From a virus, in the IMG/VR virus record IMGVR_UViG_3300006927_000008, positions 1-55,764 of that record: 55,764 nucleotides of DNA. One strand, given 5' to 3'. Below, one piece after another: positions 13,202 to 55,367 of the stretch. Below the pieces are notes generated by a model. The model saw only the letters and a list, made by a program, of their open reading frames with translations. It was not told the DNA's origin and ran no database searches. Every line of letters begins with the position of its first letter. The first letter of the stretch is position 1. The translations under genes were made by a program, and so were the position numbers.

Positions 13202-13216
13202 TCCAACCTTTCTGTA

Positions 13217-13305: not shown

Positions 13306-13312
13306 ATTATTA

Positions 13313-13403: not shown

Positions 13404-13422
13404 ATTTACAATCTTTCTTAAA

Positions 13423-13497: not shown

Positions 13498-13505
13498 TCA
13501 TGTAG

Positions 13506-13582
13506 TGGCTGGCCTCCAAGGATTCGAACCTTGAATCGACGCCTTCAGAGGACGTTGCATTAGCCGGTTATGCTAGAGGCCA
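13506..13582 (-). tRNA. tRNA-Gln (CTG)
   Basis: Acceptor TGGCCTC/GAGGCCA, arm ACGTC-CTCTGAA-GGCGT, T arm CAAGG-TTCGAAT-CCTTG, G73, CCA. Confidence 0.88.
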
Positions 13583-13588
13583 TCATTC

Positions 13589-13966
13589 TTACAGCAGTGG
13601 TAGATCTCCAATCAACTGCTTGATCAAGTCTGAATCACATGGACCAAGTGATACACCAACCAAAGTATCTACGATAATCTTGTTCGAGTCCGATACGTTC
13701 ATCTGAACCGTATCAGTCCACTTATAACGAGGCACCTTACCGTCAGGATCGCGGCTGATGATATCTTCAAGGACCTCTCTGTTCGGCACCTTATGGACGA
13801 AGATGTATGGATCAGTCAGCCACGGCAAAAATTCATGCCATTCTTTTGGGTCCATAATCTGCTGCCTCATACACTCAGCATGGATATGAGCCACTTGTGC
13901 TGCCATCAACCCTGGAGTAAAACCAAGGTCAGTGCGGATCAGGATACTCTGTCGCAGGTTTGCCAT
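13589..13966 (-). CDS. pth2: Peptidyl-tRNA hydrolase, Pth2 family
   Basis: 125 residues, near the 115-120 of the Pth2 core. SILIRTDLGFTPGLMAAQVAHI at the N-terminus matches the family's RTDLxMxxGKxAAQxxHA motif. TLVGVSLGPCDSDLIKQL near the end matches the TVLGIGPAPxxxID segment. Pth2 enzymes release peptides from peptidyl-tRNA that drops off ribosomes and so recycle tRNA. Its position inside the tRNA array fits that job well. Some family residues (the Lys/Gly of the first motif, the T-x-I-P-P region) are altered, so activity is not certain. TAAATG couples it to a small upstream gene. Confidence 0.82.
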   Translation of the reverse strand: MANLRQSILIRTDLGFTPGLMAAQVAHIHAECMRQQIMDPKEWHEFLPWLTDPYIFVHKVPNREVLEDIISRDPDGKVPRYKWTDTVQMNVSDSNKIIVDTLVGVSLGPCDSDLIKQLIGDLPLL

Positions 13967-14131
13967 TTATTCGTCCACCTCCGTGTAACCCTTCTTGTGC
14001 TTCTGCTTTCGAGAATAATGCTGACGATCTCCCTTGGAAGCGTGTGGCTGAGTTGCTCTTCCACCCTGGCCTCTGCGAATCTGTCGTCTGAGTTCCTCGT
14101 AATCGATACCAACTGCGTCCATGGTCTTCAT
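13967..14131 (-). CDS. Basic 54-residue protein upstream of Pth2
   Basis: Begins MKTMDAVGIDYEELRRQIRR, then a Lys/Arg/His-rich tail (SRKQKHKKGYTEVDE). AGGA lies six bases before the ATG and its TAA abuts the Pth2 start (TAAATG), so both are one operon from the promoter at 14162-14191. A tRNA- or ribosome-binding role is conceivable from charge alone. Confidence 0.7.
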   Translation of the reverse strand: MKTMDAVGIDYEELRRQIRRGQGGRATQPHASKGDRQHYSRKQKHKKGYTEVDE

Positions 14132-14161
14132 GGTTTTTCCTGTGTAAAAGTGTGTAGTCTA

Positions 14162-14191
14162 AATATAACCATTTGTACTGCGATTGTAAAG
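14162..14191 (-). promoter_or_regulatory. Phage promoter, 18-bp spacer class
   Basis: CTTTAC, 18 bp, TATATT, in front of the small basic gene and Pth2. Only the first base of the -35 departs from consensus. Confidence 0.68.
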
Positions 14192-14195
14192 GCTT

Positions 14196-14591
14196 TTATA
14201 TATAATCTTCAACCCCTTTTTCATCACCATCATCTTCGAGGCAGTTCCAGGGAGTGGAACCATACCACTGTGGGTGCTCTTTCAGATAATCACCATCCAC
14301 TTCGACAACATCGACCTCGCCTGGGCCCGTGAGCCCGAATTCCTCGTGCAAATATTCATGTCGAGCGAAGTGTTCGGCTTGGGCTGGATTTTCTGCAACC
14401 ACTGCAGCCTTGACGATTGTTGATACCATGAAACACTTCAACGACGGTTCGGCTGGTGTGAGCGCCTCATCTTTGGCTGGAATCGATGCGATCAGCTTAT
14501 CCCTCTCTTCAGGGTCGAGTGACGCGATCCACTCCAATGCAACCTGCTCAAATGCCTTCACGTAATTTGCATCCTCCGTATCAGTAGCCAT
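14196..14591 (-). CDS. Acidic hypothetical protein, 131 residues
   Basis: Begins MATDTEDANYVKAFEQVALE; helical N-terminal half, acidic C-terminus (DDGDEKGVEDYI). The ATG two codons inside the open frame follows AGGATTGAAA and is preferred. No family recognised. Confidence 0.7.
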   Translation of the reverse strand: MATDTEDANYVKAFEQVALEWIASLDPEERDKLIASIPAKDEALTPAEPSLKCFMVSTIVKAAVVAENPAQAEHFARHEYLHEEFGLTGPGEVDVVEVDGDYLKEHPQWYGSTPWNCLEDDGDEKGVEDYI

Positions 14592-14599
14592 TTTCAATC

Positions 14600-14782
14600 C
14601 TATGATTCGGGTCCGAGGAATAATTCATCCCAGCAGGCGTCGGAGCACATCCCCGAAATCCACTGTTCGACATCCATGCTCGTTCCGTAGATCGATGCGA
14701 GCTCATGGGTCTCAAAAGTTGGAACGTATTCACGCCCGCAGTGAGGACACTTAAGAACCGCATTCAATTTCGTTTCAACCAT
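14600..14782 (-). CDS. Zinc-finger protein, 60 residues
   Basis: Begins MVETKLNAVLKCPHCGREYV; CPHC near residue 12 and a second Cys pair (CSDAC) near 47 form a likely zinc site. GGAGGCACA precedes the ATG and the promoter at 14816-14845 is upstream. Unknown function. Confidence 0.68.
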   Translation of the reverse strand: MVETKLNAVLKCPHCGREYVPTFETHELASIYGTSMDVEQWISGMCSDACWDELFLGPES

Positions 14783-14815
14783 TGTGCCTCCATATCCATT
14801 AAACCTTACATACTA

Positions 14816-14845
14816 AATATAGGCAATTTTGAGGGTATCGTAAAC
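14816..14845 (-). promoter_or_regulatory. Phage promoter, 18-bp spacer class
   Basis: GTTTAC, 18 bp, TATATT, with TTGCC directly before the -10. Drives 14782-14196. Confidence 0.75.
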
Positions 14846-14897
14846 GTCTTTTCGGAACTAATTAACCTGTCGTAAATCCAATGTTTATGATGACTTA

Positions 14898-14971
14898 TGG
14901 AAGCCCCCGAGGGATTTGAACCCTCACCCAGCACGTTCAAAGCGTGCCTATGCTACTTACACCAAGGGGCT
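14898..14971 (-). tRNA. tRNA-Gln (TTG)
   Basis: Acceptor AGCCCCT/GGGGGCT, arm GCACG-CTTTGAA-CGTGC, T arm GAGGG-TTCAAAT-CCCTC, T73, CCA. Confidence 0.82.
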
Positions 14972-14974
14972 ATA

Positions 14975-15055
14975 TGGTCGGGTGCTCAGGAATCGAACCT
15001 GGCTAGCGCAAGCGCTGGAGGGTTACAGCCTCCAATGTATCCCAGTACTCACCCG
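14975..15055 (-). tRNA. tRNA-Tyr (GTA)
   Basis: Acceptor CGGGTG/GCACCCG, arm GGAGG-CTGTAAC-CCTCC, long variable arm (AGCGC-TTGC-GCTAG) typical of bacterial Tyr, T loop TTCGATT, A73, CCA. Confidence 0.88.
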
Positions 15056-15058
15056 TTA

Positions 15059-15136
15059 TGGTGCTCGATGTAGGACTCGAACCTACGAAATCACCTGTAT
15101 GTCAAACAGGTCCCTTAGCCACTAGGGTAATCGAGC
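15059..15136 (-). tRNA. tRNA-Val (GAC)
   Basis: Acceptor GCTCGAT/ATCGAGC, arm CCTGT-TTGACAT-ACAGG, T arm GTAGG-TTCGAGT-CCTAC, A73, CCA. Confidence 0.9.
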
Positions 15137-15139
15137 ATA

Positions 15140-15224
15140 TGGTGCTCATGACTGGATTCGAACCAGCGATCCCGAAGGAACAACGCCCTCAACGTTGCGC
15201 GTATACCAGTTTCGCCACATGAGC
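15140..15224 (-). tRNA. tRNA-Leu (GAG), long variable arm
   Basis: Acceptor GCTCATG/CATGAGC, arm CAACG-TTGAGGG-CGTTG, canonical Leu variable arm (TTCCTTCGGGA), T arm GCTGG-TTCGAAT-CCAGT, A73, CCA. The only normal class II Leu tRNA here. Confidence 0.9.
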
Positions 15225-15228
15225 ATAT

Positions 15229-15450
15229 TCATGATATTTCAGGTGTATGCATCTTTTCATCATACGGATATATTTCAAAGAAGTACGAAAATCCTTTGTA
15301 CTCAATTGCATAATCCAATATGGCCTTACATACGACCTTATTATAGAACTCTTCTATAGTCATCGAAGGAGTGAGAGTACCGCCTAACTTTCTGGCGAGA
15401 TCTATCTCATCACGTATCTTCGACTTCCTTGTCATTGAGAGTCTATACAT
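15229..15450 (-). CDS. Hypothetical protein, 73 residues
   Basis: Begins MYRLSMTRKSKIRDEIDLAR; contains TPSMTIEEFYNKVVCKAI and a tail YFFEIYPYDEKMHTPEIS. AAAGGTAATAA precedes the ATG. Unknown function. Confidence 0.68.
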   Translation of the reverse strand: MYRLSMTRKSKIRDEIDLARKLGGTLTPSMTIEEFYNKVVCKAILDYAIEYKGFSYFFEIYPYDEKMHTPEIS

Positions 15451-15472
15451 TTATTACCTTTATTCAAATAAA

Positions 15473-15549
15473 TGGAGCCGTAGGTGGGAATCGAACCCAC
15501 GATCTCTTCCTTACCAAGGAAGCGCCCTCACCTTGAAGACCTCTACGGC
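15473..15549 (-). tRNA. tRNA-Thr (GGT)
   Basis: Acceptor GCCGTAG/CTACGGC, arm CTTCC-TTGGTAA-GGAAG, T arm GTGGG-TTCGATT-CCCAC, T73, CCA. Confidence 0.88.
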
Positions 15550-15665
15550 AATTTGTAGATATCGTTCTGTCGAATATAGTCATAAACACCAGCAGAAAGT
15601 AGATGTCTAATGCTGAGACCTTTTCAATTCTATCTCGTACCTCTGATGAAGAAACCTCCATTATG

Positions 15666-15738
15666 TGGTAGCCCTGGAGGGAGTTGAACCCCCTAGCTCT
15701 GGTTCGTAGCCGAAGCGCCTCAATCCCTAGGCAGGGCT
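15666..15738 (-). tRNA. tRNA-Arg (ACG)
   Basis: Acceptor AGCCCTG/CAGGGCT, loop CTACGAA (A34 probably inosine), T arm AGGGG-GTTCAAC-TCCCTC region, A73, CCA. The D arm is short and the anticodon stem has one mismatch. Confidence 0.72.
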
Positions 15739-15838
15739 ATAGTCAATATCGAACTCAAACAGTTTTTAATGCAATTGGCCTGAAAAATTAATTCAGTTGA
15801 TACTCAGAGCCACGTAGAGGCTTGCATTGTTCTGAGTG

Positions 15839-15914
15839 GTTGACCGACGGGACTCGAACCCGCATACTCTCGATTCACAGTCGAGAACCTTAATTCCTTT
15901 AGGCTACGGTCAAC
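15839..15914 (-). tRNA. tRNA-His (GTG)
   Basis: Acceptor TTGACCG/CGGTCAA with the His-specific extra G-1 paired to C73. Arm CTCGA-CTGTGAA-TCGAG, T arm GCGGG-TTCGAGT-CCCGT. CCA is only partly encoded (C73 then CA). Confidence 0.88.
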
Positions 15915-15916
15915 AC

Positions 15917-15942
15917 GGGTGAGGGAATTGAATCCCTCAATA
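15917..15942 (-). pseudogene. tRNA T-arm fragment
   Basis: GAGGGATTCAATTCCCTC followed by ACCCG, a T arm plus partial acceptor wedged between the Trp and His genes with no 5' half. Confidence 0.35.
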
Positions 15943-16015
15943 TGGCACGGGTAGTAGGTATCGATCCCACTGCGATCGGGTTTGGAATCCAATCCGCTGG
16001 CCACAGCTTACCCGT
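15943..16015 (-). tRNA. tRNA-Trp (CCA)
   Basis: Acceptor ACGGGTA/TACCCGT, loop TTCCAAA, T arm GTGGG-ATCGATA-CCTAC with A54, G73 and encoded CCA. Confidence 0.72.
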
Positions 16016-16021
16016 ATATTT

Positions 16022-16189
16022 CTATTTGATTCTCTGCTCTTTTCTTGGTACCGCTACTTCATCTCTCTTAAAGAAGAAAACATATCCACCGTAAAGTAAG
16101 ACAGCGGCAATACCAAGATACAACATCACATCACTTCCACCGCCACTTACTCCAACCGTTACTCCTTCAGTAACTCCATTCATAACCAT
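16022..16189 (-). CDS. Single-pass membrane protein, 55 residues
   Basis: Begins MVMNGVTEGVTVGVSGGGSD, one transmembrane helix (residues 22-40, VMLYLGIAAVLLYGGYVFFF), then a basic tail KRDEVAVPRKEQRIK. The start follows immediately after the CCA of tRNA-Leu(TAG), without a binding site. Gly/Thr-rich periplasmic-like N-terminus. Unknown function. Confidence 0.6.
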   Translation of the reverse strand: MVMNGVTEGVTVGVSGGGSDVMLYLGIAAVLLYGGYVFFFKRDEVAVPRKEQRIK

Positions 16190-16190
16190 A

Positions 16191-16267
16191 TGGTGCCCAT
16201 GGTAGGATTCGAACCTACAACACACAGCTTCTAAGGCTGCTGTCTCTTCCAATTGGACTACATGGGC
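16191..16267 (-). tRNA. tRNA-Leu (TAG), short variable loop
   Basis: Acceptor GCCCATG/CATGGGC, arm GCAGC-CTTAGAA-GCTGT, variable loop GTGTT, T arm GTAGG-TTCGAAT-CCTAC, A73, CCA. Third Leu gene of the short type. Confidence 0.82.
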
Positions 16268-16269
16268 AT

Positions 16270-16307
16270 ATTAAAGCGGAGCTCTATTCCATTAGGCCAT
16301 CACACCC
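16270..16307 (-). pseudogene. tRNA 5'-half fragment
   Basis: GGGTGTG, AT, then a D arm GGCCTAATGGAATAGAGC with nothing resembling an anticodon or T arm after it. It abuts tRNA-Leu(TAG). Confidence 0.35.
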
Positions 16308-16379
16308 GAAACGGACAGAATTGAAACACTGAAAACGTGATAAGCGAATCAGACGTTCAATTCCCCTCCTATCATTTGA

Positions 16380-16461
16380 AGCATCCGGATGGTGGCCGGA
16401 ATCTCTTGGCGAGCGAAAGTCGCCAAGGCTCTGTCTACCGATATTTGAGCTATGCTTCATA
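16380..16461 (-). ncRNA. tRNA-like RNA with non-canonical T loop
   Basis: Minus strand: 7-bp acceptor GAAGCAT/ATGCTTC, D arm AGCTC..GAGC, a 7-bp stem TTGGCGA/TCGCCAA with loop CTTTCGC, then a T-like hairpin TCCGG-CCACCAT-CCGGA. Four arms form, but the T loop has no TTC and no CCA is encoded. Loop position would give anticodon TTC. It may be a decayed tRNA or a tRNA mimic. Confidence 0.45.
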
Positions 16462-16462
16462 A

Positions 16463-16554
16463 TGGCTGGGGAAGTAGGACTCGAACCTACGTACCGTTTT
16501 CAACCGGTCGACCGCATTAACAGTGCGGGGCATTGCCAACTCTGCCACCTCGGT
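16463..16554 (-). tRNA. Chimeric tRNA, Asn-type anticodon (GTT)
   Basis: The 3' part (T arm GTAGG-TTCGAGT-CCTAC, acceptor strand TTCCCCA, G73, CCA) is identical over 30 bases to the Asn gene at 16701. The 5' part (ACCGAGGTGGCAG, arm CCGCA-CTGTTAA-TGCGG, 21-base variable arm) is of long-variable-arm type, and its acceptor strand does not pair with the 3' strand. It looks like a recombinant of two tRNA genes. Confidence 0.55.
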
Positions 16555-16684
16555 ATATTTCTGTGTCTTCTTCAAGATCAATTTCATGACCACATTTGCA
16601 TCTGAAGTATCTGCCAGTGTCATCAACTCTTCGGTGACGATGGATCCAGTCTTCGTGGAAATTGCAGCCTTGATCTTCTTTCAT
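16517..16684 (-). CDS. 55-residue zinc-finger-like protein ending in a tRNA
   Basis: Begins MKEDQGCNFHEDWIHRHRRV and continues DDTGRYFRCKCGHEIDLEED. Cys/His spacing (C7, H10, C29, C31, H33) suggests a zinc site. AAAGG precedes the ATG. The last 12 codons (RGGRVGNAPHC) are the 5' half of the chimeric tRNA gene, with the TAA in its anticodon loop, so the two genes overlap by 38 bases. Confidence 0.55.
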   Translation of the reverse strand: MKEDQGCNFHEDWIHRHRRVDDTGRYFRCKCGHEIDLEEDTEIYRGGRVGNAPHC

Positions 16685-16700
16685 GATAACCTTTCAATAA

Positions 16701-16778
16701 TGGCTGGGGAAGTAGGACTCGAACCTACCTCATTTCCGGTTAACAGCCGGACGCTATCGCCTGGACAGCTCTTCCCCA
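16701..16778 (-). tRNA. tRNA-Asn (GTT)
   Basis: Acceptor TGGGGAA/TTCCCCA, arm TCCGG-CTGTTAA-CCGGA, T arm GTAGG-TTCGAGT-CCTAC, G73, CCA. Donor-type relative of the chimeric gene at 16463. Confidence 0.85.
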
Positions 16779-16786
16779 ATATATTA

Positions 16787-16863
16787 TGGTCAGGGTGGAA
16801 GGATTCGCACCCTCGGCTTCCTCGCCCCAAACGAGGCACTCTACTGGACTGAGTTACACCCTG
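16787..16863 (-). tRNA. tRNA-Pro (TGG)
   Basis: Acceptor CAGGGTG/CACCCTG, arm CCTCG-TTTGGGG-CGAGG, D arm ACTC..GAGT, T loop TGCGAAT (T55 replaced by G), A73, CCA. Its 5' end overlaps the 3' end of the HNH gene by about 10 bases. Confidence 0.78.
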
Positions 16864-17240
16864 ACGTATTCTTGTATAATACTCTCAACTAGAGAGCGGT
16901 GCTTCGAATGATAGTACTGATGATGGTTTGGACAAATTGGAACCAAATTCTTTGGGTCGTGATTTGTTTTATCGCCATCTGCATGATGAACCTCCACTGC
17001 AAGTTCTTCGCCGCATACTATACATTTCTTTTCATGGTGTGCAAAACATATCTTCCTATAGTTCTGGCCTTTCCAACAGCCATTATTTTCTCCACTACGA
17101 AAATATTTATTGGAACAGGCATAACCACATGTCTGCTTCTCTTTAGGACAACCTTTTTTTGCTTCAAATTCATCCCCACAAACCGGACAATTCTTCTTTA
17201 TCCACGGATACTGTGGGTTCTTCGTATATTGATTGGCCAT
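16854..17240 (-). CDS. HNH endonuclease
   Basis: 128 residues from MANQYTKNPQYPW, preceded by AAAGGGG. Two N-terminal Cys pairs (CPVC, CGYAC) form a zinc module. The HNH core is CIVCGEELAVEVHHADGDKT (catalytic HH), NLVPICPNHHQYYHSK; its CxxC/CxxH metal site is visible. Free-standing HNH genes of this size are typical phage homing endonucleases. Sitting between tRNA genes, it may promote the recombination that scrambled the array. Confidence 0.85.
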   Translation of the reverse strand: MANQYTKNPQYPWIKKNCPVCGDEFEAKKGCPKEKQTCGYACSNKYFRSGENNGCWKGQNYRKICFAHHEKKCIVCGEELAVEVHHADGDKTNHDPKNLVPICPNHHQYYHSKHRSLVESIIQEYVRV

Positions 17241-17310
17241 TGCATTCCCCTTTCGCAATAAATATCATTGCCTAAGGTTTGGAATACATCCAAATCAATA
17301 GCACATATTA

Positions 17311-17385
17311 TGGAGGCCCCGTTGGGAGTCGAACCCAATAGGAAATCGCTTTGCAGGCGACCCGCTTGCCGTTGGCTTCGGAGCC
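17311..17385 (-). tRNA. tRNA-Cys (GCA)
   Basis: Acceptor GGCTCCG/CGGGGCC, arm GTCGC-CTGCAAA-GCGAT, T arm TTGGG-TTCGACT-CCCAA, T73, CCA. D arm is short. Confidence 0.85.
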
Positions 17386-17417
17386 GAATATTTAGGTTAC
17401 TTTATCATCCGTCCTTT

Positions 17418-17480
17418 GGCCACCACAGCCGCAGGGTTGAGAATCAATTTCGCCTGAGGTTGGACGTCATTCACTGGTTA
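17418..17480 (-). other. Structured intergenic segment
   Basis: Minus strand CGTCC ... GGACG closes a roughly 55-base segment with internal GC-rich stems. Not recognisable as a tRNA; no ORF. Confidence 0.2.
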
Positions 17481-17485
17481 GGATC

Positions 17486-17590
17486 CTAACTACTCAGCCT
17501 CAAATCGTGTGGATCAAGGGACTTAAACCCTTGTAGAGGAGATACATCCTCCATTGCATCGTAGCAATTAACTACGGTGGCCGCTATCAT
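17486..17590 (-). CDS. 34-residue ORF downstream of tRNA-Ala
   Basis: Begins MIAATVVNCYDAMEDVSPL and ends DPHDLRLSS. It starts 14 bases after the CCA of tRNA-Ala, without a binding site. The segment AAGGG-TTTAAGT-CCCTT inside it resembles a T arm, so a tRNA relic is an alternative reading. Confidence 0.35.
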   Translation of the reverse strand: MIAATVVNCYDAMEDVSPLQGFKSLDPHDLRLSS

Positions 17591-17603
17591 GGCATCCCAA
17601 TTA

Positions 17604-17676
17604 TGGTGGAGAGTGGGAGAATCGAACTCCCATGGCTTCGGTGCAAGCGAGGCGTGTGACCCATCAGCAACTCCCC
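17604..17676 (-). tRNA. tRNA-Ala (TGC)
   Basis: Acceptor GGGGAGT/ACTCTCC, arm CCTCG-CTTGCAC-CGAAG (one mismatch), T arm TGGGA-GTTCGAT-TCTCCC region, A73, CCA. Confidence 0.72.
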
Positions 17677-17750
17677 AAATTTCGAGAGATAAGATACCGA
17701 AATATCTAATAGGCGTCCCTATGACAAAATTATCTCCCTCGTCCTGTATG

Positions 17751-17840
17751 CTCTCTGTCAGGGTGGCAGGATTCGAACCTGCGTATTCTCGATTCCAGGT
17801 CGAGACGATAGCCGGACTTTCGTTACACCCTGACAGAGAG
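17751..17840 (-). tRNA. tRNA-Pro-like (TGG) with 15-bp extended acceptor
   Basis: Core 17758-17832: acceptor CAGGGTG/CACCCTG, arm CTCGA-CCTGGAA-TCGAG (C33 instead of T33), T arm GCAGG-TTCGAAT-CCTGC. The flanks CTCTCTGT and ACAGAGAG extend the acceptor to 15 perfect pairs, and no CCA is encoded. Confidence 0.6.
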
Positions 17841-17927
17841 CACAACATATCCGTCGTAAAATGGCCAGCAGATAAACATCGAAGAATAGGGTCATGAGCC
17901 CCGAGGGTCTTTCCTCGTCCGCTAGTA

Positions 17928-18003
17928 TGGAGCCGTCTCTCAGATTCGAACTGAGTATCTCTACTTTACAAGAGTAGCGCAAATCCTAATTTGCTTAGAC
18001 GGC
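17928..18003 (-). tRNA. tRNA-Thr (TGT)
   Basis: Acceptor GCCGTCT/AGACGGC, arm CTACT-CTTGTAA-AGTAG, T arm CTCAG-TTCGAAT-CTGAG, T73, CCA. Confidence 0.9.
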
Positions 18004-18076
18004 AAGTTTGCCAGGTGTCCTATACTTAGACGATAGACTGCGAGCTAGGCATTTCTCCTAACATTTCCTGGACCAA

Positions 18077-18151
18077 TGGAAGCGGGCGAGGTTGCTGCCA
18101 CCTCTAGCTACCCGGATTATGAGTCCGGGAGGATCACTGGATCTACCCGCG
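18077..18151 (-). tRNA. tRNA-Met (CAT), initiator-like
   Basis: Acceptor CGCGGGT/GCCCGCT with an unpaired 1-72 position (C-T), the hallmark of bacterial initiators. Arm CCGGA-CTCATAA-TCCGG, T stem GAGGT/ACCTC with the odd loop GGCAGCA, CCA. The three consecutive G-C pairs of true initiators are incomplete. Confidence 0.65.
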
Positions 18152-18182
18152 GATCGTACTGTGACATTACATCCGCCACGTC

Positions 18183-18320
18183 TTAAGTGCCTGAAGATGT
18201 GGAGTCGAACCACTTGCGAACCTGCTCGGCCAGCGTCCTTTGACGGAGCCTCTGAGGAATCGAACCTCTTTCATCCCGTGTCCGCGGAGACATTAGGGAA
18301 ACCACCAACGGCGTCTTCAA
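18183..18320 (-). CDS. 45-residue basic ORF over tRNA relics
   Basis: TTG-started frame MKTPLVVSLMSPRTRDERGS, then IPQRLRQRTLAEQVRKWFDS. Composition is protein-like. The same DNA contains two perfect T-arm hairpins (GAGG-TTCGATT-CCTC and GTGG-TTCGACT-CCAC) without complete tRNA bodies. It is either a small gene or two tRNA relics; both readings are uncertain. Confidence 0.3.
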   Translation of the reverse strand: MKTPLVVSLMSPRTRDERGSIPQRLRQRTLAEQVRKWFDSTSSGT

Positions 18321-18324
18321 AATA

Positions 18325-18400
18325 TGGAGGGGTATACGGGAATCGAACCCGTCTATCTTGGTTGGAAGCCAAGCATCTTATACCGATGGATCAATACCCC
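18325..18400 (-). tRNA. tRNA-Gly (TCC)
   Basis: Acceptor GGGGTAT/ATACCCC, arm CTTGG-CTTCCAA-CCAAG, T arm ACGGG-TTCGATT-CCCGT, T73, CCA. The only Gly gene in the array. Confidence 0.9.
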
Positions 18401-18410
18401 AAAACTATGA

Positions 18411-18470
18411 TGGAGATGGATGGGAATCGAACCCGCGTCTTCCGGTACTCTGCCACTGAGTTACCATCCC
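18411..18470 (-). pseudogene. tRNA lacking the anticodon arm
   Basis: Acceptor GGGATGG/CCATCTC, TA, D arm ACTC..GAGT and T arm GCGGG-TTCGATT-CCC are present. Only ACCGGAAGAC separates the D and T arms, where about 22 bases are expected. A deletion of roughly 12 bases removed the anticodon loop. Confidence 0.6.
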
Positions 18471-18640
18471 ACTTTATGGTGGAGGCCCCGGGAATTGAAC
18501 CCAGTTGTCTGGTACTTCAAGCCAGCGCATTGACCACAATTGCTTGACCTCCAAATCTCTTTTTGATCCTCAAGCCCCACCATCAGATCATCCAGATTCA
18601 GGATTTCTGGTTGCATGGCAACCACATCAGATGCTTGCAC
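18461..18640 (-). CDS. Small ORF reading through tRNA-Phe
   Basis: GTG start with GAGGA six bases upstream; begins MQASDVVAMQPEILNLDDLM and continues VGLEDQKEIW, clearly protein-like. The frame then stays open through the whole tRNA-Phe gene and stops in the anticodon-less tRNA. The authentic protein may once have ended before the tRNA. Unknown function. Confidence 0.45.
   Translation of the reverse strand: MQASDVVAMQPEILNLDDLMVGLEDQKEIWRSSNCGQCAGLKYQTTGFNSRGLHHKVGW
18477..18552 (-). tRNA. tRNA-Phe (GAA)
   Basis: Acceptor GGAGGTC/GGCCTCC, loop TTGAAGT with a C31-A39 mismatch, T arm CTGGG-TTCAATT-CCCGG, A73, CCA. Confidence 0.75.
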
Positions 18641-45620: not shown

Positions 45621-45740
45621 TCATCTATACCTACATCTTGCGATTGCCTTCCTTACATGGTTGATGACAACTGTAGTATGCGCTCTTCTCTTTCGACCAT
45701 TAGCTTGTAAACGATAGATATGCTTTTTCTGAATTTTCAA
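45621..45740 (-). CDS. 39-residue highly basic protein
   Basis: TTG start overlapping the upstream stop as TTGA, with AAGGTGG seven bases before. Sequence begins MKIQKKHIYRLQANGRKRRA and ends VRKAIARCRYR, with about 15 Lys/Arg. Coupled directly to the acidic FliM-like gene, so the two products may interact. Otherwise unknown. Confidence 0.65.
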   Translation of the reverse strand: MKIQKKHIYRLQANGRKRRAHTTVVINHVRKAIARCRYR

Positions 45741-46243
45741 TGGAACCACCTTTTCACTCTTCGTGGAAGATCGAAATTGTCAAGATGAGATTGGTCAATA
45801 CCAACCACATTAACAATGAATTCAAGTAGTGCTTTCAATTCCTTTTTCGTTGCATCGCGAGGGATAAGAAGATCACGCTCTTTTCCATCATATAAACTAT
45901 GGTTATGTAGACCGAGACCATGAAGACCGTCTACAGCATCTGCCAAATCATCTTCAGCTTCATCATCGTATTCGTCATCATATTCATCCTCTTCTTCCAT
46001 CATCTGCAACATTCTTTCGGTGAGTTCATCTACTTCTTCATCTTCATAAAGAGCACTGTCATCATCATCATACTCACCGTTCTCTTCGTCGTAGTCGACT
46101 TCTTCATCAACATTTACTGTAGGACGCAATACTCCAGGTGCTACCTCTTCTTCCTCTTCTGGAGGTGAGCAATAGATTTCATCTGATTCGTCTTCATGAG
46201 AGAGTAATGCATCAACTTCTTTTTGTGATAGGATGTCACCCAC
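45737..46243 (-). CDS. Acidic protein with FliM N-terminal CheY-binding motif
   Basis: 168 residues. The first 15, MGDILSQKEVDALLS, reproduce the N-terminus of the flagellar switch protein FliM (and FliN/FliY), whose LSQxEIDALL peptide binds phospho-CheY. The next 90 residues are extremely acidic (DEEVDYDEENGEYDDDD and similar), followed by a short folded C-terminal domain (DATKKELKALLEFIVNVVG, DLPRRVKRWFH). AAGGAG precedes the ATG. None of the FliM middle or C-terminal ring domains is present. A decoy for CheY-P or another FliM partner is the obvious idea; it is inference. Confidence 0.75.
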   Translation of the reverse strand: MGDILSQKEVDALLSHEDESDEIYCSPPEEEEEVAPGVLRPTVNVDEEVDYDEENGEYDDDDSALYEDEEVDELTERMLQMMEEEDEYDDEYDDEAEDDLADAVDGLHGLGLHNHSLYDGKERDLLIPRDATKKELKALLEFIVNVVGIDQSHLDNFDLPRRVKRWFH

Positions 46244-46558
46244 GTTTATTCTCCTTATAGTAATTGTTCCGATAAATAGCCAGTTGTGTAGAGTGATCAG
46301 AGAAAAAGATCAACACAAGTTCTGGATTTTTCCAGTGGATTCTCCACTCAATACTTTAGCCTTGCGCACTTGATACTTGAACCGGCATTATTTATCGACA
46401 TTGCCGTATGTCTTAAACTTGAGCGCTTAAGGCTTGAGACTTTATAGGTTGCCCTAACGGGCTGCATTATATAGTCTATTATATAGAGTTCCATTCTATC
46501 GCTGATGGAGCGCGTTTCCCTATTTCCTCCTGTTTACATCTACGAAACAATCGATATG
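46244..46558 (-). other. 315-bp intergenic region with structured repeats
   Basis: No convincing gene. An AGGAGG near 46525 leads only to a non-standard start. A 48-codon frame starting MELYIIDYIMQPVRATYKVS lies at about 46326-46472 but lacks a binding site. There are two TATAAT boxes and several overlapping CTTAA/CTTGA inverted repeats around 46409-46441 (for example CTTAAGCGCTCAAG). May encode a small RNA or a long leader. Confidence 0.35.
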
Positions 46559-48355: not shown

Positions 48356-49588
48356 CTATACAAATTCGTGATGCTGCGTATTGCTTTTTGCTATTTCTGC
48401 AGCTTCGAGTAACTGTGATTCCCATGTGTCTACAGCACCACTGCCATGGACGTTTTCTATCTGTACCAATTCTCTATACTGCTCAAATAACTTCCATACT
48501 GCCTTGTTACTTTCGTGTGGTTTACATAGCTCTGTACAATTGCTGAATTTTTCTACTTCATCAATTTGATCCATCACCTTTCTACGAGCCTTAAGATCAT
48601 TCCATATTTCACTGAATGGCCTATCGTGTAAGGAGCCATACGAATACTCTTTATAGCCTCTATGATTAGGACAGACATAGACATGACCATCTGCTCCTAC
48701 ACAAGGTGATATCTGTGATCCAAGACAACTTTTGTATCTTCTGCCGAATAGCTCAGGGTCGTTCTTAAGGTCAGAGAACTTATATCCAGGGAGCTGGAAT
48801 TTATCGCCAAGGATTTCCTTTGCTTCAGCTACCAATGGTTCGACGTCTTTCTCCCAGAAATCGATCTCCCTTTGGATACCATCTTCTCTTTCCCTATTCA
48901 CGATTTCAGGTTTGTACTGACAGTAATCGACTCCTGTATGTACAAAGCTCTTTGCAAAAGAGACTATACCCTTGTATGTATCCGGAGTAATAACAAATCC
49001 TACTCCTATGGTCATATTGGATTTATGCATATCTCTTATAGCAACCAGATTCTGCAAGCTATACATCATGTGATCCCAGTCCTGACCAGTGGGTGGTTTC
49101 CTTACTCTATTATAGATCAAATAATTGCCAGCATCGACAGAGTATCGTACCCATGTCATATACTTGACTAGAGTTTCATAAGCATCCCTAACTGGAACCA
49201 GAGTACCATTGGTAAACATACCCATCTTGATATCTGTGTTCTTTCCCACCCATTCGATAACCTCGGTAAGATGAGGGTTAACGAATGGTTCACCTCCTCC
49301 GGTCCAGTTGATCGCCCTTACTCCCATATCAGCCATATCCTCAACAGCTGCGAACAACATCTCTCTCGACATTATAGACCGATTGAACGTAGCTGTTCCT
49401 TTGGCTTCTGCTTGATGGATATAATTGCTGATACAGAAAGAACAACCATGGTTGCAAGCATTACTTGGATCGAACTCAACTAACACAGGAGCTGTATTAC
49501 CCGTCTTGAAAAGTTCAATCACTCTATCAGCATTGACAAGAACCTTTTGCTCTGGGTTAAAGATTTTTGATTCGAAGTACTGTGTCAT
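48356..49588 (-). CDS. Radical SAM enzyme with SPASM-like C-terminus
   Basis: 410 residues. The SAM cluster motif is CNHGCSFC (CxxxCxxC), preceded by VLVEFDPSNA and followed by INWTGGGEPFVNPHLTEV, the GGEP SAM-binding motif. A Cys-rich C-terminal part (RYKSCLGSQISPCVGADGHV, CPNHRGYKE, CTELCKPHES) resembles SPASM or twitch auxiliary-cluster domains. Such enzymes perform radical modifications of peptides, nucleosides or sugars. It heads a coupled cassette with the beta-propeller, the glycosyltransferase and the C-N hydrolase, suggesting a modification pathway. Substrate unknown. Confidence 0.9.
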   Translation of the reverse strand: MTQYFESKIFNPEQKVLVNADRVIELFKTGNTAPVLVEFDPSNACNHGCSFCISNYIHQAEAKGTATFNRSIMSREMLFAAVEDMADMGVRAINWTGGGEPFVNPHLTEVIEWVGKNTDIKMGMFTNGTLVPVRDAYETLVKYMTWVRYSVDAGNYLIYNRVRKPPTGQDWDHMMYSLQNLVAIRDMHKSNMTIGVGFVITPDTYKGIVSFAKSFVHTGVDYCQYKPEIVNREREDGIQREIDFWEKDVEPLVAEAKEILGDKFQLPGYKFSDLKNDPELFGRRYKSCLGSQISPCVGADGHVYVCPNHRGYKEYSYGSLHDRPFSEIWNDLKARRKVMDQIDEVEKFSNCTELCKPHESNKAVWKLFEQYRELVQIENVHGSGAVDTWESQLLEAAEIAKSNTQHHEFV

Positions 49589-50440
49589 TCATTCCCTCAT
49601 ATACTTGATTGCGTAGATCTCTGGACCAAAGATGCTATCCTTGATTGAAATGGTTCGGCTTGTTTTTATCGCGCCTGTTTCCAAATCCAAGATAGTGAGC
49701 CGGATGTAATTACCCCTTTCCGATTCACCAACATAAACTTCACCACGTTCATATGATATATCGAGGCCTCTTGTATAAGCCCCCAGTTGTTTTGTCCACT
49801 TTGGAAAGCCAGATCTATTAGATATAACTTCACAACTAGCTGAACTGCAAACAATGTAGCCGCCTGGTACAAACTTGAAACTATGTGGCTGATTCAATCC
49901 TTGAGCCAAATAAACGCGCTGACCAAAACCGCCCTCTGTATATCCAAGTGTGTGGCCCTTATCGGGATATGTACCATGAACGCACATAGACATCATTGGT
50001 GTTTCACCATCTGATCTAGCGAAATCTATATCATTTACATGAAGCTTCTCTGCCATCTCTTTTGAGCCATCATAATCGGGGTGTTCAAAACTAAAGAGAC
50101 TCTTCACACCAGTTTCTAATTCATAGATAATGACCTTAGCCGTAGATGTATCAGCTATGAATACATGATCTGTGTATCCATATTCGCTAGGCTTATACGC
50201 TATACCATGAAGATCCATTCCTAAAGGTTGCGACCGATGAAGTCTATTAAGATCAAAATCAAGAGTATATAGATTTCGTATGTCAACAGCGTATATAGCC
50301 TTTGGTCCAATGTCAACACCTGCAAAACCTGCCTCTGTAACACCTGTAAATCCTTGATCCATATAGTTAAGCTCTTCATCAAAATATCCTAAGCTCACTT
50401 GTGGGGATACGGATCCTACAAATGAAACAAGTAGCTTCAC
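49589..50440 (-). CDS. Beta-propeller protein, DUF4915/TIGR03032-like
   Basis: 283 residues with repeated blade-like segments: MDLHGIAYKPSEYGYTDHVF, LHVNDIDFARSDG, LNQPHSFKFVPGGYIVCSS and YTRGLDISYERGEVYVGESE. The HVNDI and LNQPHS..GG.. features recall DUF4915-type propellers that act beside glycosyltransferases. GTG start overlapping the holin stop (GTGA). Likely a substrate-binding or stabilising partner in the modification cassette. Confidence 0.7.
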   Translation of the reverse strand: MKLLVSFVGSVSPQVSLGYFDEELNYMDQGFTGVTEAGFAGVDIGPKAIYAVDIRNLYTLDFDLNRLHRSQPLGMDLHGIAYKPSEYGYTDHVFIADTSTAKVIIYELETGVKSLFSFEHPDYDGSKEMAEKLHVNDIDFARSDGETPMMSMCVHGTYPDKGHTLGYTEGGFGQRVYLAQGLNQPHSFKFVPGGYIVCSSASCEVISNRSGFPKWTKQLGAYTRGLDISYERGEVYVGESERGNYIRLTILDLETGAIKTSRTISIKDSIFGPEIYAIKYMRE

Positions 50441-50961
50441 TTACCAATTCGATCCAATTGCTCACTCTTCTTTTTCGAGCCAGCAGATGAGCCAAAGAAG
50501 AAACCAATGATGTCCTTCCAAGCTGCCCCAAGGATACCAACCAAAACAAGCATGATATCTCTAGTTGTTCCAGCCTCTGGTCCATAACCAGCTATCAACG
50601 AAGCTATAACACCGAAAAACCCAAGAGTCGTCAACCACGTAAGACCAATCGCATTCCAATCTTGGCCTGCGGCTGTATACATAGCTCTCGCATCCTGCCT
50701 ATCGGCCATTTCCAATTTAGACTGCTCGAGGGCGAGCTCTTCGAACTTTGTCTTTTGATTGACCTCTAGTGCCTTCAGATCATATAGCTTTTCGGGGTTT
50801 TGTTCGAGAATTGCAATGGCCTCATCTTCATCATCTGGATCAGTACCCAGAACTGATGAAACCAATGCTGCTACTGAGCCTCCTGCTGGCCCACCAAGTA
50901 CTGTACCAAGAAGTGGTGCAGCACTCTTAACGATATTGCTTAACCTACTCCAACCTGCCAT
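50437..50961 (-). CDS. Phage holin, 3-TM type
   Basis: 174 residues. The N-terminal AAPLLGTVLGGPAGGSVAAL stretch, a polar helical linker (KLEMADRQDARAMYTAAGQD), and hydrophobic segments near 105-125 and 132-152 follow the layout of the 3TM holin family. AAAGGATAATC precedes the ATG. Holins permeabilise the inner membrane at lysis. No endolysin is obvious within this window. Confidence 0.78.
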   Translation of the reverse strand: MAGWSRLSNIVKSAAPLLGTVLGGPAGGSVAALVSSVLGTDPDDEDEAIAILEQNPEKLYDLKALEVNQKTKFEELALEQSKLEMADRQDARAMYTAAGQDWNAIGLTWLTTLGFFGVIASLIAGYGPEAGTTRDIMLVLVGILGAAWKDIIGFFFGSSAGSKKKSEQLDRIGK

Positions 50962-50963
50962 GA

Positions 50964-51383
50964 TTATCCTTTCTTAATACGTGCTGCAGCGGCCTTTACT
51001 GCTGCAACATGTTCCTTCCTACCCTTTGATGCAAACTCTTCAGGTGTCATCCATTTGGTGGCACCTACTTCATAGTCTGTCCTATTGAATTTCGTATCTT
51101 TATCTATGAGAGCGAGGAAAACATGCAATACTGATTCCTCCTCCACACCTGTGACTTTGATCTTTGGCCCTTTAATCAATTTCTTGATTGACTTGAACCT
51201 AAGACCCAATTCTTCACCAGCTTCTCTTACTCCAGCTGTTGCAGGATTTTCACCGGCATCAATATGGCCCTTGGCTATTTGAAACCTCGGGCCACCATAA
51301 GCCGGATTGCTCGGCTTCATGAATTTCATATAAACCTGACCATCCTCTATAAAGAATGGTATACACCCGGCTTTATTTTTCAT
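50964..51383 (-). CDS. Nudix hydrolase
   Basis: 139 residues with a full Nudix box, GHIDAGENPATAGVREAGEELGL (positions 39-61; G, E, R, E and EE in place). Removes nucleoside diphosphates linked to other groups, for example NADH, ADP-ribose or capped RNA ends. It overlaps the ligase/nucleotidylyltransferase gene by 4 bases (ATGA), which ties it to nucleotide or NAD chemistry there. Confidence 0.93.
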   Translation of the reverse strand: MKNKAGCIPFFIEDGQVYMKFMKPSNPAYGGPRFQIAKGHIDAGENPATAGVREAGEELGLRFKSIKKLIKGPKIKVTGVEEESVLHVFLALIDKDTKFNRTDYEVGATKWMTPEEFASKGRKEHVAAVKAAAARIKKG

Positions 51384-53437
51384 GATTTCTTTCCCTTACC
51401 GATCCTTACCTTTTGGGGCTTAATATACTTCTGCAACAACTTAAACAATTGCTCCTTCTTTCTGTCTGGGATATCACCCGCCATGGCGTTCATGAATCTT
51501 CCCATATCACCAGTACGAAGGAATTCTCTTACCTTGGTTCCTGAGATACCAGAAGTACCTCCGCCTGAAGTCCTCTTTATCTCTTTTACGTTCCAAGCAA
51601 CATGAGGATCATATTCCCAATACTTCTTGAATTGCATTTTGTAGCCAGGAATTCTATCAGAGCCTGCATAGACATTCACAGTCCCTACATCCCTGAGATT
51701 AATATGTTCATCTATCAGAGCTGGAACAAATCCACCATCAGCAGCTATTACATGGATCTTACCTGCCAACTGAATGATCTTCTTCCTTACGGAGAATGGG
51801 AATGGATTCTTGGCGTCGACTCTTCTACCAGCCACAAATACATAGACCTCATCATTTTGCGCAATGGCTTCCCTGAATACTTTGAAGTGGCCTGCTGTAG
51901 GAGGATGGAATCGACCAAGGATGATACCAATCGATTTACCACCAGGCCTTTTCTCCTCACGAAGGAAAAGCTCGAATGGATTATCGATGGTATGCCATTC
52001 ATTCAGCTTTCGCAGATTCCTCTGACCCAAGAATACTCTTAATAGCTGAACTGCTGAACCTTCATTGGTTCTCTCCTTAATACCTCTAACTTCTTTGTCA
52101 TACTTCTCCAGCTCTTCCCCAACAGCGAGGAATGTTTCCCTCGTCTTTCGCACATGAACCGGATCGTATTTGACATCCCTCTTGAACTTACCTCTTTTGA
52201 CCTTAAGTGATCCACCCTGATTCTCTTCAAACTCATCACTCAAAGCAGCCAAAGCCTTAAGGGCTCTTTTAATCGCTACTGAGAATTGCTGTTTCGTTGA
52301 ACTGAAGCTACTGAACTTGTAGTTCTGATCTTTTAGGAATTGAAGGAGCTTCTTATTGGTTGGAACTCCAGGATACTTCTTCTTAATTGAATTCGTAGTA
52401 CCAGGTGTCTTGAGGATCTTAATCTTGAACGCCTTCTCAGCTATATCATTCTTGAATCGTGTCATAACTCCAGGAACAAAGCTACCAGCAGGACCAGTAC
52501 CAGCCATTGAAGCTTCTCTGTAATGCCATAGGAACTTATTGATGACTGGGAATACTGACACCACCTTAGATAAGTCTCCAGTCTGAAGATCCTTAATCAC
52601 AATACCTTCAGGCCATGAGCCACCAACATTATTACCCTTTTCATCAAATTCAGGTTGCGGTGCTATGCTTGAAGATGGTAGTTTTGCTAGCAACTGATCA
52701 ATAAGCTTCTCTTTGATAGTCAGCTGGAATTTCTTGATCCTTGCCTTCAGCTTCTCACGCTCGGCTACGATCTTATTCTTGTTTGGACCAGCTGCCCTCA
52801 TGGATAATACGGCGAAGTTGGTCGAGTCCTTGAATACCTTATTCTTTTGCTCTAAGAACGCTTCTAGCCGGTCTAAATCACCTGCTACAGACACCTTGTA
52901 CCGCTTGGTGTTTACCACTTCCTTACCACCAAAGGAGTATATAACATTCTGCGTTGAGCGAGCTATCTTACCTTTTTTGGCATCATAGAAATACAGATCA
53001 ATCTTCGCTTTGGCATCACCAAGCTTCTTCGCTACATGATTGAAGTTGGCATCATGGATAACGATGAAGTTCTTGCCATACTCTATTGCATTTGGGATTG
53101 ATTCGAATAAGACTTCACAATCTACATAGTCACCAGGGGACAGTAATTTCTCTAGTTCAGCCTTCTTTGAAACCAAGGCTGCCACTGCAGATCTAATTGG
53201 GTTATACATCGCCTTCTTCGGCCAATCGTTGGGTCCACGCTTCTGCTCTGACTGACCCTTGACAGCTCTAGCGAAATAGAGCTTGCCATTTTCATCCAAA
53301 CCAAAGCCAAGGTTTGCTGAACCATCAAATTTGATTGATACTTCGATTGATGCGTCTTGATTGGATAGTCTTCTTATGGTATCAAGAAACCTACCAATTT
53401 CAAGATCATCGATGTGCGAGATACCTTCTGTTAACAC
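51380..53437 (-). CDS. Fusion: polynucleotide ligase-like plus NMNAT-like nucleotidylyltransferase
   Basis: 685 residues, GTG start after GGAGAACATAG. N-terminal part: VSIKFDGSANLGFGLDENG is the KxDG nucleotidyl-transferase motif, VDCEVLFESIPNAIEYG follows, and WPEGIVIKDLQTGDLSKVV supplies the later ligase motifs. A Lys-rich linker of about 250 residues leads to the C-terminal part, IGIILGRFHPPTAGHFKVFR (HPPTxGH), GAGKIH, VYAGSDRIPGY and TSGISGTKVREFL (ISGTxxR), the NadR/NMNAT/pantetheine-type nucleotidylyltransferase pattern. So one chain may adenylate a polynucleotide and also make a dinucleotide such as NAD. The architecture is unusual and I know no named match. Confidence 0.85.
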   Translation of the reverse strand: MLTEGISHIDDLEIGRFLDTIRRLSNQDASIEVSIKFDGSANLGFGLDENGKLYFARAVKGQSEQKRGPNDWPKKAMYNPIRSAVAALVSKKAELEKLLSPGDYVDCEVLFESIPNAIEYGKNFIVIHDANFNHVAKKLGDAKAKIDLYFYDAKKGKIARSTQNVIYSFGGKEVVNTKRYKVSVAGDLDRLEAFLEQKNKVFKDSTNFAVLSMRAAGPNKNKIVAEREKLKARIKKFQLTIKEKLIDQLLAKLPSSSIAPQPEFDEKGNNVGGSWPEGIVIKDLQTGDLSKVVSVFPVINKFLWHYREASMAGTGPAGSFVPGVMTRFKNDIAEKAFKIKILKTPGTTNSIKKKYPGVPTNKKLLQFLKDQNYKFSSFSSTKQQFSVAIKRALKALAALSDEFEENQGGSLKVKRGKFKRDVKYDPVHVRKTRETFLAVGEELEKYDKEVRGIKERTNEGSAVQLLRVFLGQRNLRKLNEWHTIDNPFELFLREEKRPGGKSIGIILGRFHPPTAGHFKVFREAIAQNDEVYVFVAGRRVDAKNPFPFSVRKKIIQLAGKIHVIAADGGFVPALIDEHINLRDVGTVNVYAGSDRIPGYKMQFKKYWEYDPHVAWNVKEIKRTSGGGTSGISGTKVREFLRTGDMGRFMNAMAGDIPDRKKEQLFKLLQKYIKPQKVRIGKGKKS

Positions 53438-53629
53438 CTATGTTCTCCGTTTTGCATATGGAGCCAGCTCTAATATTCTAGTCATGCATTTCATTTCAAC
53501 GCAATACTCTAAACCATGCAAAGAGAAAAAGCAATATTCGCCATCAATGTAATATTGCTCTATCTCTTCAATATGTTTTAAGTATATGTGGCTATACGTA
53601 TGAAAGTCGTATATCTTCGCCACGAACAT
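53438..53629 (-). CDS. Hypothetical protein, 63 residues
   Basis: From MFVAKIYDFHTYSHIYLKHI; aromatic and Tyr-rich, ending APYAKRRT. The ATG follows GATATTTATA and has no binding site; a longer start lies upstream in the neighbour. Its stop abuts the ligase fusion GTG. Unknown function. Confidence 0.5.
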   Translation of the reverse strand: MFVAKIYDFHTYSHIYLKHIEEIEQYYIDGEYCFFSLHGLEYCVEMKCMTRILELAPYAKRRT

Positions 53630-53637
53630 TATAAATA

Positions 53638-54642
53638 TCAGCCCACACTTGTAAATATGTTGGCGCAATCAGGTATGAATTTGTTAGCTTCCCTCAACAT
53701 ATATATGACCCTAGCTGGAGATGAATGATATTGAAGGGCATGGCTATGGGCTGACTTAGCCATATCTGCGGTCTGATCCGGATTATCCAAAGCATATCTT
53801 ACAACAAATTCCAGCTGATCCATATCCTTGAATTCCCAATAGTCCTGTCCTTCAAGAAATGGGTAAGGCATGAAAATCATAACCGGTTGTGTGATAAGCA
53901 GAGATCCCTGACCGATAATTTCCCAAAATCGTGCTGCATTACAACCATGAGCACCATATGCATCGACAGACATCTTTGATTTTGCAAGCATACTGTAATA
54001 TTCGGCATGCTCTCTATTTCCGGTGTCAACTCCTGAAGCATTCTCCCTTTGACCTCCATAGAGCTGACCAACGATTGACTCTGGCAGATCCATAGCCAGA
54101 AGCTTTTGCTCTATCTCGAACCTCCATGGCTTGGTATCATCATGAGGCCCAAACATACACGACAAATTGATACCTCTGAAATCATGAGCCAAAGGATAAC
54201 TCCCCAATGGAGGAACATATCGGTCCTCCATAGCGAACGGACAAGAGATCACGTTTTCTGGATGATCTTCACTAAGAAGCATTTCACGCTTGAAGTAAAT
54301 TGGGTAGTCACCTGGCTTCTCCCTATATGGACTAGTGTCTTCACCATCCAAATAGGCTGTCTTGCTTCTATACTTCTTATCGACGATGTCTGCTCTTACA
54401 TCATTATTCGAAGTAATGAAGATGATAGCTGCCTCTTCACACCATTTCTCATAATCATCAGGCATCACCTGGAAATTCCATTCAGGAGTGACAGCGTAGT
54501 TGCTGGTCTCTACACAACCAAGTTCAATATCTGTCTTGAGGTTGCCCACAACCTCTTTCTGTGTAGCTAACCTTGCAAGACCTTCGATAAGGTTGGCTGA
54601 ATTGAAGTCATAGTGAGGTGTTTGTACTACGAATACCTTCAT
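53638..54642 (-). CDS. CgeB-like glycosyltransferase
   Basis: 334 residues beginning MKVFVVQTPHYDFNSANLIE. The C-terminal half has the GT-B donor-binding signature of CgeB/DUF3880-type enzymes: EYYSMLAKSKMSVDAYGAHG, CNAARFWEIIGQGSLLITQ, FLEGQDYWEFKDMDQLEFVV and ALDNPDQTADMAKSAHSHA. Transfers a sugar to an unknown acceptor, which might be DNA, a peptide or a surface glycan. Coupled to the C-N hydrolase by ATGA. Confidence 0.83.
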   Translation of the reverse strand: MKVFVVQTPHYDFNSANLIEGLARLATQKEVVGNLKTDIELGCVETSNYAVTPEWNFQVMPDDYEKWCEEAAIIFITSNNDVRADIVDKKYRSKTAYLDGEDTSPYREKPGDYPIYFKREMLLSEDHPENVISCPFAMEDRYVPPLGSYPLAHDFRGINLSCMFGPHDDTKPWRFEIEQKLLAMDLPESIVGQLYGGQRENASGVDTGNREHAEYYSMLAKSKMSVDAYGAHGCNAARFWEIIGQGSLLITQPVMIFMPYPFLEGQDYWEFKDMDQLEFVVRYALDNPDQTADMAKSAHSHALQYHSSPARVIYMLREANKFIPDCANIFTSVG

Positions 54643-55367
54643 GATTTTATCACTTCCATTTTTTCGGTGTCTAAAACGAATGACTTGGTTGTAGTTGGGT
54701 ATTCCATGAACAGAGGAAAGCCAGTTCTGTCAACTACGAAATTGTGACTCATCTGCCAAGAGTAAGGAGTCAATACATACTCTGGTCTATCCATAGAACA
54801 GTTAAGTGAAACGATTGGTACATCAAACTTCGCCGCTGCTGTGGATAGTGTATCCAATACACTTCGCCAAGCTGCTGGCTTCCAAGTACCAGGTGGTGAT
54901 CGATGATACTTGCAATGGATGATTAGCTTAGCTCCCTGTGATACCAGATATGCAGCCATACCATCGTCTCGTTCAAGGTCGTAGCATATCCCAATACCTA
55001 TAGGGAATTCATCGATGAATAACATATTCGATGGGTTCATGAATTGCAATCTATCCACCTCGTGTCCAGTGAGGGCTGTCTTCGTAAAGACTCTCGTGTC
55101 CTCATCTTTCTTGAGGAAGAACATTCCGTTGACACCACCTACAAAGGGGATATCAGTAACAGCGCCCACCAAGGCTGGCTTCACTGCCTTCTCTTTTATG
55201 GACTGGAATTTTGGGATGAGGGCAGAGTAAGGTCGAGGATGTGGCCAGCCTGTGGCAGCTCCTTCCGGGAATACATTCAAACCTACATCAGGTCTTATAG
55301 AACTAGCTATTTCTGTGATCGAGAGTTCTGAATCATCTGATCGTGTTGATACAAAGTTGATTAGCAT
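54639..55367 (-). CDS. Carbon-nitrogen hydrolase (nitrilase superfamily)
   Basis: 242 residues with the Glu-Lys-Cys triad: FPEGAATGWP (Glu), FTKTALTGHE (Lys), GIGICYDLERDDG (Cys). Members hydrolyse amides, nitriles or glutamine (supplying ammonia to synthases such as NadE). With an NMNAT-like domain and a Nudix hydrolase next door an NAD-related amidase is conceivable, but a peptide or sugar amide substrate in the modification cassette is equally possible. Confidence 0.9.
   Translation of the reverse strand: MLINFVSTRSDDSELSITEIASSIRPDVGLNVFPEGAATGWPHPRPYSALIPKFQSIKEKAVKPALVGAVTDIPFVGGVNGMFFLKKDEDTRVFTKTALTGHEVDRLQFMNPSNMLFIDEFPIGIGICYDLERDDGMAAYLVSQGAKLIIHCKYHRSPPGTWKPAAWRSVLDTLSTAAAKFDVPIVSLNCSMDRPEYVLTPYSWQMSHNFVVDRTGFPLFMEYPTTTKSFVLDTEKMEVIKS

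Follow-up and report, generated by a model that had tools for sequence, protein, structure and literature searches.

A phage protein with a FliM/FliY-type peptide at its N-terminus: a candidate mimic of the CheY-P docking site

The stretch of DNA analysed here, hereafter the window (all 55,764 nucleotides of IMG/VR virus record IMGVR_UViG_3300006927_000008), has in its gene content the look of a piece of a large phage genome. It codes for UvsX, a gp32-like SSB, a DNA polymerase, a DnaB-like helicase, a ligase, a ribonucleotide reductase and RtcB. No confident virion structural gene was recognised among the scanned window proteins, the nearest being a ClpP-like protein, possibly a head-maturation protease, and one weak match to a tail-fibre family. 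Thirty-two tRNA genes, covering most amino acids, lie within approximately 9 kb (positions 9417-18552). A cluster at positions 48356-55367 codes for a radical SAM/SPASM protein, a Nudix protein, a protein with a C-terminal cytidylyltransferase-like domain, a glycosyltransferase-like protein and a carbon-nitrogen hydrolase; it is reminiscent of a small gene set for biosynthesis or for the modification of nucleotides.

The minus-strand segment 46190-46243, to which the first-pass annotation had drawn attention, comprises codons 1-18 of an open reading frame coding for an acidic protein whose parts are listed in Table 1; the protein starts with MGDILSQKEVDALLSHEDESDE. Upstream of the gene, positions 46244-46558 form a region of approximately 315 bp without a long open reading frame, in which several short repeats and palindromes are found, and a 2.2-kb stretch scanned around the gene gave no Rfam match. 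A T4-type late promoter, TATAAATA, was considered and discarded, its frequency being the same as in shuffled sequences and no exact copy lying at the peptide gene.

Table 1 Features of the peptide gene in the window, and families with the core motif at the N-terminus (coordinates are those of the window, except for L021, which has its own)
Feature	Position	Strand	Basis or sequence
Gene for 168-aa acidic protein with FliM/FliY-like N-terminal peptide	45737..46243	-	pI 4.05
FliM/FliY 'LSQxEIDALL' (EIDAL) peptide, here ILSQKEVDALL, codons 4-14	46202..46234	-	sequence, PDB match, model, profile
Shine-Dalgarno AAGGAG, 7 nt upstream of GTG start	46251..46256	-	same in both near-identical contigs
Acidic linker, residues 16-125, 44% Asp/Glu, variable GAT (Asp) run	45869..46198	-	composition; low-confidence model
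Basic, predicted helical C-terminal segment, residues 126-168, short	45740..45868	-	pI 9.5 (last 44 residues); helix predicted
N-terminal motif, window family			MGDILSQKEVDALLS
N-terminal motif, L007/L018			MRDILSQDEIDALLNGLG
N-terminal motif, L016			MASILSQSEIDALLDAV
N-terminal motif, L025			MTLSQEEVDALLRGV
N-terminal motif, Campylobacter-phage family			MAxILSQEEIDALL
N-terminal motif, L030			MSDGSLSQDEIDALLAGV
N-terminal motif, L021 large terminase	6492-6520	-	MSSLSQAEIDALLPF

The LSQxEIDALL peptide of FliM and FliY is an established docking site for CheY-P; it stays disordered in the absence of CheY-P and on binding forms a helix that occupies the alpha4-alpha5 groove of CheY (PMC6700473, PMC7595845, PMC9126983). 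The first-pass annotation had described the start of the window protein as nearly the same as this peptide of FliM, and the comparison was borne out, with a conservative replacement of Ile by Val and a likeness well above what chance would give. Specifically, on a profile built from 16 FliM/FliY N-termini (E. coli, Proteus, Pseudomonas, Aeromonas, Bacillus, Acetoanaerobium, Azospirillum, Pontibacillus, Caballeronia, T. maritima and spirochaetes) the window peptide scored 28.7 bits and the top unrelated ORF start 5.8 bits (n = approximately 1,240), figures that serve as a guide only because the background was small and drawn from the same loci. A phmmer search of the PDB, in which the solved FliM sequences include Salmonella FliM and a T. 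maritima FliM peptide (PDB 8umd chain C and 4iga chain B), returned for the first 22 residues a single match, to residues 2-20 of Salmonella FliM, the E value of 0.79 being weak because the query was so short. In the structure model of the protein, residues 7-14 are predicted to form a helix within the part modelled with best confidence (mean pLDDT 71, residues 1-10); the model as a whole (pLDDT 57.5) was too poor for a fold search. The exact form ILSQKEVDALL (K-E-V) was not found in any FliM among approximately 85,000 species genomes, which weighs against the reading of the peptide as a mimic. Host assignment by the same exact string was abandoned, since it gave one chance match in those genomes, at the C-terminus of an unrelated ORF.

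The first-pass annotation had further proposed that the rest of FliM is replaced, which agrees with what was found. The protein had no Pfam match to a FliM or SPOA domain at E values up to 1 and no Pfam or PHROG match of its body to any family, the CheC-type phosphatase domain (FliY/CheC/CheX) included; the acidic tract and the basic C-terminus follow the peptide instead. For the C-terminal segment no relatives were found in Pfam, PHROGs or annotated phages. The window protein has an EIDAL-type peptide at its very N-terminus, followed by a non-flagellar body. Two near-identical IMG/VR contigs (L002 and L003) encode the protein as well, differing from the window gene only by one synonymous base and by the number of GAT codons in the Asp run; a synteny search via UvsX recovered only these two again, and no whole-protein relatives were present in annotated phages. 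Short-peptide tblastn searches were too weak to detect even true matches. The PHROGs collection gave one weak match, to phrog_31201, spanning exactly residues 1-14.

A similar peptide stands at the start of a family of Campylobacter-phage proteins. A tblastn search with the protein of locus L029 returned 44 records, all from Campylobacter phages and nearly all annotated as hypothetical, with members in Fletchervirus NCTC12673 (gp149, AEA86491), Firehammervirus CP220 (CPT_0071) and the 35-kb phage DA10. When the window protein was compared with the proteins of these three phages by BLAST, its body gave no match and alignment was limited to the first 14-15 residues. Conservation among related phages, on which the first-pass annotation had let its proposal depend, is seen in this analogous family: ILSQEEID is invariant in ten aligned open-frame proteins, DA10 included, and the peptide is their best-conserved part, the bodies of the NCTC12673, CP220 and DA10 proteins sharing 31-41% identity. 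The window phage's own relatives are all near-identical. The Campylobacter-phage body of approximately 110 residues is not acidic and was modelled, with moderate confidence (pLDDT 68.5), as three helices, for which a PDB fold search gave no match at E < 0.001. Phage CPt10 has two copies of the gene (L035 and L038), one of them truncated with the peptide intact. At L033, L034, L035, L075 and L076 the gene carries a frameshift or its first ATG has become ATA, the first 14 codons being almost intact; from their sequences these copies could reflect decay or phase variation. The 35-aa phrog_31201 seems to be a truncated form of the Campylobacter-phage peptide gene.

N-terminal targeting peptides are known in phages and are established for the internal proteins of T4. 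It may thus be asked whether the N-terminus serves a structural purpose of the phage, such as packaging or virion targeting, with its likeness to FliM a by-product. In NCTC12673 the neighbours of gp149 are hypothetical genes, and the head-completion gene gp4 is found a few genes away, as such a role might lead one to expect. However, phages that differ in size and type (35-kb DA10, the 130-180-kb Eucampyvirinae and others) share the peptide, its gene has different neighbours in them, and the motif follows the variants of FliM/FliY rather than any known protease site, so that we regard a structural purpose as highly improbable.

In order to see how widely the peptide recurs, the back-translated core LSQxE[IVM]DALL was scanned without anchoring against 2.9 million viral contigs and each match was placed in its ORF. 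The core was present in 18 protein families, grouped by body, and was N-terminal in seven of them (Table 1), against the few per cent to be expected if the motif fell at random along a protein of approximately 200 residues; in the other 11 it lay inside the protein, at the C-terminus or in an ORF of doubtful status. When the scan was anchored to the start of the protein (MxxILSQxE[IVM]DxLL), it gave 11 stretches and added L036 (MADILSQDEIDRLL) and L037 (MADILSQEEIDRLL), whereas the reversed peptide in the same pattern gave none. The enterobacterial spacing MxxxILSQ was absent from the viral contigs. With the first 17 residues removed, the bodies of the window, L007, L016, L025, L030, L036, L037 and Campylobacter proteins showed no significant BLAST similarity to one another outside the Campylobacter family, and L036 and L037 gave a 61-residue alignment only when the peptide was included. 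Because the same peptide is found on mutually unrelated bodies in other phages, it is a reusable element rather than the accident of one protein. In a 236-kb contig (L004, positions 3184-3212, plus strand), a phage ORF ends with SSILSQDEVDALLSGCSINEYED, the core thus lying at the opposite end of the protein.

These scans also bear on whether the resemblance is a coincidence, or a generic helix-capping sequence (S-x-x-E plus hydrophobics) with no relation to the flagellum. The large terminase L021, otherwise ordinary-looking, starts with the motif (MSSLSQAEIDALLPF); this is probably a coincidence, and the motif can therefore arise without a docking function, its presence by itself being no proof. 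The 11 families with the core at other positions, and the lack of flagellar features in the bodies, speak in the same direction. On the other hand, when the Gln position was freed and S/T-x-x-E and the hydrophobics were kept, all matches had SQ except two SK variants, both in Campylobacter-phage genes (L075 and L076) that are frameshifted after approximately 35 codons. Since these were the only extra matches, SQ is specific to the set and is altered in copies whose remaining reading frame is disrupted. Together with the empty reversed-peptide control, the invariance of ILSQEEID in the Campylobacter phages and the form of the peptide in L030, this makes chance or generic capping unlikely in our judgement.

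More specifically, spirochaete FliY starts with MSDGS/ALSQDEIDALLAG and spirochaete FliM with MTEVLSQDEIDQLL or similar. L030 starts with MSDGSLSQDEIDALLAGV and carries MSDGSLSQDEIDALLAG, and therefore matches the spirochaete FliY form and not the spirochaete FliM form. A search of Spirochaetota genomes for a host of L030 returned nothing, a result that by itself is uninformative.

Based on these comparisons, we propose that the window protein is a phage mimic of the FliM/FliY EIDAL docking peptide that seizes CheY-P, a proposal to which its sequence lends about an even chance. The proposal starts from the first 15 residues, a FliM/FliY-type EIDAL peptide at its native N-terminal distance on a body unrelated to FliM, and from the same peptide on mutually unrelated bodies in other phages, among them many of Fletchervirus and Firehammervirus. 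Free and not anchored to the motor, the peptide would adopt its helix within the alpha4-alpha5 groove of CheY-P in the manner of the FliM peptide and compete with FliM/FliY. The body, be it the acidic tail or the helical body of the Campylobacter phages, might keep the decoy soluble or stable, raise its abundance, make it multivalent or tether CheY elsewhere. In an infected cell CheY-P would then no longer drive motor switching, and chemotaxis would be lost, without the motor itself having to stop; the lock on flagellar rotation raised in the first-pass annotation may be one of several outcomes of such a decoy.

CheY-P is the most likely target of a mimic and FlhG (FleN), a MinD-like ATPase, the main rival target, because the N-terminus of FliM contacts FlhG, which in C. 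jejuni controls flagellar number and division placement. In monotrichous bacteria FlhG contacts FliM/FliN via the FliM N-terminus, and in B. subtilis it binds FliY (PMC12826062). In C. jejuni it sets flagellar number and Z-ring placement and is mislocalised in C-ring mutants (PMC6946799). A peptide aimed at FlhG would upset the number of flagella, the expression of flagellar genes or, in Campylobacter, the placement of the division site, and a block of division by a phage would be an ordinary form of take-over. The C. jejuni study, however, detected no stable interaction of FlhG with any C-ring protein (PMC6946799), and the conserved core is the CheY-contacting LSQxEIDALL block; the sequences do not tell the two targets apart. 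We consider FlhG a minor possibility, though the strongest of those set against CheY-P.

A slightly less probable alternative is that the peptide is a docking tag which recruits CheY, or some other receiver domain, to the body for relocalisation, dephosphorylation, degradation or use as a co-factor. All the bodies differ and could have activities of their own, and FliY itself joins an EIDAL-type peptide with a CheY-P phosphatase domain (PMC7595845). Against this, no match to the CheC, CheX, FliY or CheZ families was found in the phage bodies, and inspection of the Campylobacter-phage alignment revealed no invariant ExxN or D..Q pair.

Returning to the decoy, several phage lineages may, about as likely as not, have independently placed the FliM/FliY peptide of their own host, in the form of that host lineage, on unrelated small proteins, giving convergent decoys that would seize CheY-P (or FlhG) and uncouple the motor from chemotaxis in the course of infection. 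The motor is of evident importance to phages that rely on motile hosts. On non-motile C. jejuni mutants NCTC12673 forms plaques poorly or fails to form them, in a study that mentions neither CheY, FliM nor gp149 (PMC8540345), and the EIDAL motif is present in most FliM sequences of a set including Epsilonproteobacteria (PMC6946799). A phage-made EIDAL peptide, if confirmed, would be a direct viral handle on bacterial steering; should the phage proteins bind CheY-P, they would be natural inhibitors of a signalling interface, and a role could be assigned to phrog_8774 and phrog_31201, both of unknown function. With gp149 of NCTC12673 and CPT_0071 of CP220, both from sequenced cultured phages, it is now testable whether infected cells still answer their chemoreceptors.

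Viruses are known to imitate host peptides, the imitation of short linear motifs being known mainly from viruses of eukaryotes. The statement in the first-pass annotation that no phage protein of this design had been described needs qualification: proteins of the same design from Campylobacter phages such as NCTC12673 and CP220 have long been deposited as 'hypothetical protein', while no paper recognising the peptide was found, nor any published phage mimic of FliM or CheY, in the open-access literature searched. The sequences themselves are old deposits; seeing in unrelated phage proteins one shared FliM/FliY docking peptide is new as far as that literature shows.

The window protein resembles FliM in its ten-residue core, which is helix-forming, lies at almost the FliM distance from the start and keeps Q, E, D and the hydrophobics (V for I). 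It differs from FliM in having an acidic tract and a short basic segment in place of the CheC-like middle and SPOA C-terminal domains, and because these are absent it cannot join the C-ring. FliY of Bacillus and Spirochaetota likewise carries the peptide on a body other than that of FliM, and L030 has the spirochaete FliY form; FliY, however, has a CheC-like phosphatase and/or a SPOA domain, which all the phage proteins lack. CheZ, with a CheY-binding C-terminal peptide and a separate helical body, is generally like the phage design, whereas the phage peptide is N-terminal and of FliM type, with no match to the CheZ family. The members of phrog_8774/phrog_31201 (NCTC12673 gp149 and CP220 CPT_0071) are small phage proteins of the same design, starting with MAxILSQEEIDALL, but their body, three-helical in the model, is unrelated to that of the window protein. 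Lastly, phages with CheY-like genes are already known, and the CheY-like proteins of Alteromonas phages A5 and V22 are likewise products of phage genes aimed at the chemotaxis pathway, these being receiver-domain proteins and not FliM peptides (PMC10579305).
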